This document shows positions 5,353-7,931 of a stretch of DNA of 64,000 bases, piece after piece. This DNA is from Kiloniellales bacterium. GTDB taxonomy: Bacteria > Pseudomonadota > Alphaproteobacteria > Kiloniellales > JAKSDN01. The translations under genes and the position numbers were made by a program. The notes under the pieces were generated by a model, which was given only the letters and a program-made list of their open reading frames with translations, was not told where the DNA came from and searched no databases. Numbering within the stretch: the first letter of the stretch is position 1; each line of letters opens with the position of its first letter. The stretch lies in contig JANQLT010000164.1 in the NCBI GenBank assembly GCA_028280455.1, forward strand, positions 1 through 64,000, read 5' to 3'.

Positions 5353-6381
5353 ATGGCCGGCGAAGCGTCGCCTCGAGACTCAGGGTTTCTCGACCCGGGC
5401 GAAGGCCTGGCCCTGCTGCTCGCCGTGCCGCCGCTCGCGGTCGTCGTGATCAGCCAGGTCCTCTTCGAGGTCGCCGGCTTCGATCTCTTGCCCCTGGGCC
5501 AGGAGGTCCAGGATTTCGTCCGCCGCACGGGGCCGGTGCCGCTCGACACCCGCCTGGGCGACATGGAAACGCGGCTCTTCTGGGCGCTCTCCGCGTTCGC
5601 CGCCATGGCCGCCGCCCTGGCCCTTACCATCGTCGCCCTCGCCATCCTGGTGCGCTCGGTGACGACGCGGGGCCTCAGGCTCTTCGTGCCTATCGGCTTC
5701 GCCTTGATCGTCCTCGGCCTGCTGTCCTTCTACTACGCCATGGTGGCCGAGACGCCGATCGCCGGCATGTTCCGCTTCACCTACGATAACCTGGTGGCGG
5801 CCTCCCTCGATCCGGGCTTCCTCGTCGTCGTCAGGTGGCTGGTGATCTTCCTCAACCTGCTGTCCGTGGTCGCGCCCTTGAGCGCCATGATGGCGGCCTG
5901 CAGCACCCTCGCGCCGCCGCGCCACGGCGGCCCGGGCGACGTGGCCTTTCTCGCCGGACAGGTGCGCTTCCTGAAGGTCCTGGTGGTGCTGGGCTCGACC
6001 TATCTGGTGGCCGGCGTCCTCAACATGGGCGTCTGGCTGGCCTGGCCGGCGAAGCTGATCGGCTCGGAGGCCCATGCCGCCCAGGTCGAGAGCCTGGCCG
6101 GCACGATCAGCATCTACTGGGGCGGCTGCTTCACGGTGCTGATCGCCGCCTTCTACGCGCCGGCCATGATCCTGTTGCGCGATCGCGCCGAGACGGTGAT
6201 CGCCCGCAGCCCCGCCTCGACGGGCGGCATGACGGTCGAGAAGTTCCTGGAGGACCACGGCATTTCGCTCTCGCTCGGCAAGCAGCTGCCGCAGATCGCC
6301 GCGGTCCTGGCGCCGCTTCTGGCCGGGCCGATCGGCTCGGCCATCACCAGCCTGGCCGGCGCCTTGCCCATGCCGGGCTGA
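5353..6381 (+). CDS. Conserved-looking multi-pass membrane protein, function unknown
   Basis: 342 residues from ATG 5353. About six membrane helices by hydrophobicity, near residues 19-40, 75-99, 108-127, 154-180, 202-225 and 250-275. The last 50 residues contain a soluble amphipathic region (VEKFLEDHGISLSLGK) and a final hydrophobic glycine/alanine-rich stretch. I do not recognise the family. It lies alone between nadE and the cysS leader, with a 102-bp gap upstream, so it may be co-transcribed with nadE. Codon use matches its neighbours. Confidence 0.75.
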   Translation: MAGEASPRDSGFLDPGEGLALLLAVPPLAVVVISQVLFEVAGFDLLPLGQEVQDFVRRTGPVPLDTRLGDMETRLFWALSAFAAMAAALALTIVALAILVRSVTTRGLRLFVPIGFALIVLGLLSFYYAMVAETPIAGMFRFTYDNLVAASLDPGFLVVVRWLVIFLNLLSVVAPLSAMMAACSTLAPPRHGGPGDVAFLAGQVRFLKVLVVLGSTYLVAGVLNMGVWLAWPAKLIGSEAHAAQVESLAGTISIYWGGCFTVLIAAFYAPAMILLRDRAETVIARSPASTGGMTVEKFLEDHGISLSLGKQLPQIAAVLAPLLAGPIGSAITSLAGALPMPG

Positions 6382-6410: not shown

Positions 6411-6439
6411 TTTACAGCCGGCGCCGCCAGCGGATAGGT
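6411..6439 (+). promoter_or_regulatory. Candidate promoter for the cysS leader
   Basis: TTTACA (6411-6416) matches a -35 box at five of six positions. A weak -10-like ATAGGT lies 17 bp further on (6434-6439). A start site 6-8 bases after this would fall at or next to the leader ATG at 6447, giving a leaderless or nearly leaderless peptide. The -10 match is poor, so this is tentative. Confidence 0.35.
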
Positions 6440-6446
6440 TGCGCCC

Positions 6447-6479
6447 ATGAGCGCTTACGACCGTCGATGTTGCTACTGA
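6447..6479 (+). CDS. Short leader peptide with tandem Cys codons (MSAYDRRCCY)
   Basis: A 10-codon frame, ATG 6447 to TGA 6479, encodes MSAYDRRCCY, with adjacent cysteine codons TGT TGC at 6468-6473 near its end. It lies 69 bp upstream of the cysteinyl-tRNA synthetase start. An AGG at 6436-6438 could serve as a weak ribosome site if the transcript begins further upstream. Position, length and the two consecutive Cys codons are as expected for an amino-acid-sensing leader whose translation slows when charged Cys-tRNA is scarce. Expression is not shown by sequence alone. Confidence 0.65.
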   Translation: MSAYDRRCCY

Positions 6480-6534
6480 GCCTGCGCCCCACCGGCCGCG
6501 GGCCGGTCTGCATGCGACAATCGTTATCCGGTCG
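6458..6534 (+). promoter_or_regulatory. Probable cysteine-responsive attenuator of cysS
   Basis: Two competing structures are visible. A long-range helix joins the leader coding region to the cysS 5' region: CGACCG (6458-6463) with CGGTCG (6529-6534), and CGATGTTGC (6465-6473) with GCGACAATCG (6514-6523, one bulged A, one G-U pair). The Cys codons lie in its 5' arm, and its 3' arm ends at the GAAAG (6534-6538) that is the likely cysS ribosome site. Enclosed is a perfect hairpin ACCGGCC-GCG-GGCCGGT (6491-6507). A ribosome stalled at the Cys codons would open the long helix and free the cysS start region. Confidence 0.55.
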
Positions 6535-6548
6535 AAAGTGATCCCATC

Positions 6549-7931
<1,383 letters not shown>

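Follow-up and report, generated by a model that had tools for sequence, protein, structure and literature searches.

How is expression of cysS, the gene for cysteinyl-tRNA synthetase, matched to the supply of charged tRNA-Cys in an alphaproteobacterium of the order Kiloniellales? The question is raised by a short gap in front of cysS in the window, by which we mean the whole 64,000-nucleotide stretch of DNA that was analyzed. A preliminary description of this gap had proposed a ten-residue peptide with adjacent Cys codons whose coding bases also pair with the ribosome site of cysS, so that a stalled ribosome would raise cysS translation. Our analysis indicates that positions 6411-6548 likely constitute a cysteine-sensing leader that controls translation of cysS. 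That a Cys leader peptide precedes cysS in Alphaproteobacteria is already known for the Rhodobacterales, where the uORFC-8-2 class comprises 145 examples located exclusively upstream of cysS (Brewer et al. 2021, RNA Biol, PMC8632094). These leaders combine tandem Cys codons with a U-run terminator and have been read as ribosome-mediated (transcription) attenuation (PMC8632094). In a search of full texts available without subscription, uORFC-8-2 was found only in PMC8632094 and no description from other orders was found. Relative to uORFC-8-2, the apparently new aspects are the occurrence in other orders, the pairing with the cysS ribosome-binding site (RBS), the lack of a terminator in the window, the probable leaderless placement and the codon pair CGA-UGU.

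The leader peptide and its presumed promoter

The cysS gene of the window scores 500.6 bits against NCBIfam TIGR00435, where the cutoff is 340. The ten-residue peptide with adjacent Cys codons is present as had been described (Table 1), with the codons ATG AGC GCT TAC GAC CGT CGA TGT TGC TAC TGA, and the distance from this uORF to cysS is 69 nt. The uORF is intergenic since the upstream gene ends at 6381; this 342-residue ORF (5353-6381, + strand) lies between an NAD+ synthase gene and cysS and has no NCBIfam match. The TTTACA element is placed 36 nt before the uORF ATG, and the same -35 position is found in relatives. A general consensus promoter scan detected nothing at the window leader, and thus the promoter is weak by E. 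coli standards. The -35/-10 spacing would set the transcription start at or beside the AUG, so that the uORF is probably leaderless. Promoter spacing fits a leaderless start in 33 loci, and a Shine-Dalgarno (SD) sequence is absent from most uORFs of the set.

Table 1. Features of the cysS leader in the window
Feature	Position	Strand	Basis
-35-like TTTACA, presumed cysS promoter	6411-6416	+	direct reading; position agrees with relatives
-10-like GATAGGTT	6433-6440	+	TA at -12/-11 from uORF ATG; the 32 further promoter-filtered uORFs share this spacing
Leader peptide uORF MSAYDRRCCY, then stop	6447-6479	+	direct reading and uORF scan
Long-range helix, 5' arm (uORF codons 2-9)	6452-6473	+	predicted fold, pair probabilities; pairing kept across relatives
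Codon pair CGA-UGU (Arg-Cys), then UGC	6465-6470	+	kept in relatives
Inner helix 6475-6488/6494-6507, rival of the 7-bp hairpin	6475-6507	+	predicted fold
Long-range helix, 3' arm over cysS ribosome-binding region	6514-6540	+	predicted fold; swap test
Weak Shine-Dalgarno-like GAAAGTGA of cysS	6534-6541	+	direct reading; occluded in predicted OFF fold
cysS, cysteinyl-tRNA synthetase	6549-7931	+	NCBIfam TIGR00435; single copy in the genome

Loci containing cysS were collected from the window's order (61 of 63 genomes), from the class, from named genomes and from two further orders, and the uORF scan covered the 215 alphaproteobacterial loci from the first three of these sources. To be accepted, an ORF had to start with ATG, span 6-40 codons and leave 25 nt or more to cysS; cysteine was no criterion. 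The promoter filter called for TTGA, TTGG, TTGC or TTTA at 34-37 nt upstream of the ATG, together with TA at 12-13 nt. Thirty-three of the 215 loci pass; Cys is present in all 33 ORFs and occurs at least twice in 24 of them. Dinucleotide shuffles put through the same filter gave 1.03 loci with a maximum of 3, of which 0.6 had Cys and 0.17 had two; the promoter positions were picked after the first Cys uORFs had been seen, so the figure of 33 is in part a product of fitting. Before filtering, 175 of the 314 short ATG ORFs in the scanned regions contain Cys, versus 33 of 33 after it, and therefore the promoter filter and Cys go together. Examples in the window's order are MSWHRERCPG and MSVPTQRCPRA, and elsewhere MSQFFLPGASLARCIEA in Reyranella (L094), MINRSHRCCCPGGRITA in family f109, MFDVRFALCPACCCCR in Hyphomonas (L109) and MNTNTLIICCITC in a Roseobacter MAG (L143); outside the 33, MKTVICIICRKIIR occupies the same position in Rhizobium and Ensifer (L160, L162). 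The preliminary description had tied its proposal to conservation of the short ORF in relatives, and a Cys ORF is indeed conserved there. A recognisable Cys uORF is missing in many genomes of the window's order, including L002 and L004 of the same family.

Several further observations concern these loci. In Rhizobium and Ensifer (L136, L160, L162) a near-identical leaderless-type peptide, MKTV[IT]CIICRKIIR, lies at about -167 to -120 from cysS, and Stappia L116 carries MTTATRNRISILIICS before cysS in the same place as the Rhizobiaceae uORF. Members of another alphaproteobacterial family (L087 and L174, genomes G183 and G286), which were not in the swap test described below, have uORFs ending in ATRC and a stop, with CGATGTTGA before cysS. 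One genome of the window's order contains a second, divergent cysS paralogue (L054, G035:C25:12617-13990; 60% identity) that apparently lacks the leader. An Rfam PYLIS_3 match (45.4 bits, gathering threshold 38) occurs near cysS in Roseovarius gaetbuli (L151:430-528, - strand). Matches of the MDQSSRFCCR type in genus g21 (L010, L013, L026) were rejected as frames inside the 3' end of gltX, and permissive Rfam matches in the loci were rejected as off-target, such as to microRNA models.

Pairing of the uORF with the cysS ribosome-binding region

The fold was computed for an RNA beginning at the uORF AUG, and pair probabilities were calculated. It contains the proposed long-range helix from the uORF bases to the cysS ribosome site, built of the segments 6452-6456/6536-6540, 6458-6463/6529-6534, 6465-6468/6520-6523 and 6469-6473/6514-6518, with probabilities mostly of 0.84-0.99, and this predicted helix covers the weak SD-like GAAAGTGA. 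The perfect 7-bp hairpin that had been placed inside the helix (ACCGGCC/GGCCGGT, 6491-6497/6501-6507) exists in the sequence, but its probability is about 0 in the free RNA because 6475-6488/6494-6507 wins; the hairpin does form once the uORF is masked to mimic a bound ribosome. In the model, the leader structures do compete. With the uORF masked in silico, the long helix is lost and part of the SD becomes free; the mean accessibility of -25 to +3 does not rise (0.53 to 0.47), since a weak hairpin forms locally around the cysS start. Compared with shuffles, the minimum free energy has z = -1.06 for an arbitrary stretch and -2.04 for the RNA from the AUG, and the uORF:RBS duplex of the window has z = -3.04. 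Fold evidence from this single sequence is suggestive, and it is the relatives that make the case convincing.

Since MAFFT alignments of the leaders put gaps inside the uORFs, a swap test was used instead of column-wise covariation. This test compared native with swapped partners inside each group, by the energy of the duplex that the initial 30 nt of the uORF form with -30 to +3 of cysS. Pooling 55 sequences from the window's order, the Reyranella relatives and two further families gave -21.5 kcal/mol for native versus -16.2 kcal/mol for swapped partners, with 0 of 20,000 permutations as good. For the window's order the values are -20.99 and -14.37, the native partner being better in 14 of 14 cases (0 of 20,000 permutations) and, with one sequence per genus, in 6 of 6 (p=0.003). 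The Reyranella group, defined by L094 and by leader similarity to the order of G339, gave -23.9 native versus -21.9 swapped (p=5e-5), and f109 gave -16.8 versus -14.4 (p=0.002). In two control regions of the gap native partners gain nothing in the window's order, f109 or the Reyranella group. Thus the anticipated co-variation of the uORF arm with the RBS arm is borne out, as the pairing is maintained in relatives. The same pairing is made from unrelated sequences in different lineages, for example GTCCTGGCA/TGCCAGGAC in L003 and AAGACCC/GGGTCTT in L034, and in L289 the pairing CTTCCCG/CGGGAG takes in the SD. The Cys codons, which had been assigned to the 5' arm, do lie there in the window, but not in all relatives, where the RBS-pairing part of the uORF is mainly codons 2-6.

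A different result was obtained for the Rhodobacterales, in which the 30 nt after the uORF stop pair natively better with the uORF (-15.7 versus -13.2, p=0.00025) and the RBS region exhibits no native effect (p=0.92). The leader type of the window's order-level relatives differs from that of the named Rhodobacterales loci. The swap results therefore indicate two architectures, one in which the uORF locks the ribosome site and one, in Rhodobacterales, with a leader stem presumably linked to a terminator. A site scan found no terminator-like site in the window leader, and the stretch from uORF to cysS is free of T4 runs in the window, L003, L008, L009, L031, L034 or L037. In leaders of genus g25 (L015, L020, L021, L027, L029) the end of the uORF is overlapped by a GC hairpin that is conserved and leads into a few T residues (CCCTTTT or a similar stretch); besides RBS pairing, these leaders may include a terminator component.

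The CGA-UGU codon pair

Together, the window's order, the Reyranella group, f109 and f41 supply 57 distinct uORFs, all of which encode Arg-Cys; the Arg codon is CGA in 55 and the Cys codon is UGU in 56. These uORFs are related by descent, so that the counts are not independent, although the lineages otherwise share little peptide. In the cysS genes of the same loci CGA accounts for 1.8% of all Arg codons and UGU for 12% of all Cys codons. CGA is never used at the 27 other uORF Arg codons of the window's order plus the Reyranella group, and in f109 and f41 it is also found in an RIT motif. One exception to CGA-UGU is AGA-UGU, which retains the Arg. Among 44 tRNA matches in the window genome (about 97% complete) the tRNA-Arg anticodons are ACG, CCG, CCT and TCT, with no TCG, and thus the ACG (inosine) tRNA presumably decodes CGA. 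Two other roles for the hexamer were considered and rejected. As the source of an internal ATG opening a second ORF coupled to cysS, its frame stays open as far as the vicinity of cysS in 50-67% of loci versus 92-100% for the other frame; as a base-pairing element, its mean pairing is about that of the whole leader, and somewhat higher in the Reyranella group.

Inhibitory codon pairs beginning with CGA are known in yeast, and a 2021 review describes bacterial codon combinations as being without experimental data (PMC7829197). We tentatively suggest that CGA-UGU may be a bicodon amplifier, in which CGA held in the P site on tRNA-Arg(ACG) would make Cys decoding unusually sensitive to Cys-tRNA. 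Bacteria would here put the yeast CGA-first effect to regulatory use, conserved across several alphaproteobacterial orders, in a leaderless attenuator of translation whose mRNA 5' end locks the ribosome site.

Proposed mechanism, alternatives and related systems

Comparison among relatives establishes, at the level of sequence, a conserved Cys uORF with its promoter spacing, a co-varying uORF:RBS pairing and a near-invariant CGA-UGU. From these we infer Cys-tRNA charging as the sensor, control at translation and the following ON/OFF sequence. Transcription would start at the AUG of the 10-codon leaderless uORF, as judged by promoter spacing, and a 70S ribosome would load on the 5' AUG during transcription. 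With Cys-tRNA plentiful, this ribosome would pass CGA-UGU-UGC, stop at codon 11 and leave, upon which the RNA 5' end would fold onto the cysS ribosome-binding region and shut it. When charged tRNA-Cys is scarce the ribosome would wait at UGU (codon 8) with a footprint of about codons 3-12, which is most of the 5' arm because the stop lies only three codons beyond the first Cys codon. Occupation of the 5' arm would leave the cysS ribosome site free long enough for loading, resulting in more synthetase. In the g25 relatives the first Cys codon can lie at codon 8-17; where the Cys codons come later, one stalled ribosome might in some cases fail to cover codons 2-6, and a queued second ribosome would be needed.

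Control could instead operate by transcription attenuation as in the Rhodobacterales uORFC-8-2, with the stalled ribosome preventing an intrinsic terminator between uORF and cysS. Such a mechanism has been published for the homologous position, it fits the pairing of the Rhodobacterales uORF with the 30 nt past its stop, and in some g25 leaders CCCTTTT comes directly after a GC hairpin; for the window group it is rather unlikely, as the co-varying partner of the uORF is the RBS region and not the post-stop stretch, and neither a terminator-like site in the window nor a T4 run in the window and the six relatives listed above was found. Sequestration of the ribosome site is our preferred reading of the output. 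The input could likewise differ, in that the uORF might act via CGA-UGU or the nascent peptide as a constitutive pause, a sensor of arginine or general translation, or an arrest peptide. CGA-UGU is kept more strictly than the number of Cys codons, and several uORFs have a single Cys (MFGKTQRC, and those ending in ARCN). However, the uORFs before cysS in Rhodobacterales, Rhizobiaceae and Hyphomonas keep Cys codons without CGA-UGU, Cys is the residue common to 33 of 33 uORFs ahead of the one gene that charges tRNA-Cys, and the peptide around Arg-Cys varies between lineages, so we regard this explanation as decidedly improbable.

A chance ORF combined with a chance fold in a GC-rich gap would account for the modest folding z-scores of the window taken alone (-1.06 to -2.04) and for the same-family genomes L002 and L004 that have no Cys uORF. 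It is highly improbable given that only about one shuffled ORF per 215 loci gets through the filter that the window uORF passes, and that this uORF has CGA-UGU, promoter spacing and RBS pairing in common with its relatives.

Viewed as a cysteine-sensing leader, the sequence before cysS in the window resembles uORFC-8-2 in having a short Cys-codon uORF directly upstream of cysS, in the same place and with the same logic. It differs in having no intrinsic terminator stem and U-run at its 3' end and in pairing, in the window's order, with the cysS RBS, whereas the first stem of uORFC-8-2, which holds the Cys codons, closes within the leader; because these two defining structural features are absent, we do not file it as uORFC-8-2. 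Additionally, the Cys codons of uORFC-8-2 are usually preceded by Ile and those of the window version by CGA-Arg. It is plausible that both share an ancestral uORF device.

Like amino-acid leader-peptide attenuators, the leader contains codons of the regulated amino acid (Cys in 33 of 33 promoter-filtered uORFs). Mycobacterial polycysteine leaderless sORFs are, according to the review PMC9031893, cysteine-responsive attenuators (Canestrari et al. 2020), and in this they resemble the window uORF, which has Cys codons and is apparently leaderless. The window belongs to a different phylum. The mycobacterial sORFs reportedly lie upstream of sulfur and cysteine operons rather than cysS. In the alphaproteobacterium Sinorhizobium meliloti, trpL/rnTrpL is an attenuator RNA whose 5' end encodes a leaderless leader peptide (PMC10117765). 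The window leader, also alphaproteobacterial, differs from trpL, which has Trp codons, precedes trpE and acts by transcription attenuation. In translation attenuators of the ermC type a ribosome stalled on the leader peptide frees a sequestered ribosome site; stalling there is induced by antibiotic on an SD-led leader and involves no tRNA-charging sensor. The window leader is like ermC in its proposed release of a ribosome site by stalling and unlike it in being probably leaderless with Cys codons. T-box leaders raise expression of a synthetase gene when its tRNA is uncharged, by direct tRNA binding without a ribosome. The proposed output of the window leader is similar; no Rfam family reaches its gathering threshold anywhere in the window, and thus no T-box core and specifier structure was found.

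These results suggest that ribosome-based cysteine sensing of cysS would be widespread in Alphaproteobacteria, as the counterpart of T-boxes. They also suggest that one leader has apparently been rewired between two outputs, transcription termination in the Rhodobacterales versus ribosome-site sequestration in other orders. A rare codon fixed before the sensing codon would provide a clean natural case for codon-pair tuning of leader-peptide stalling in bacteria.
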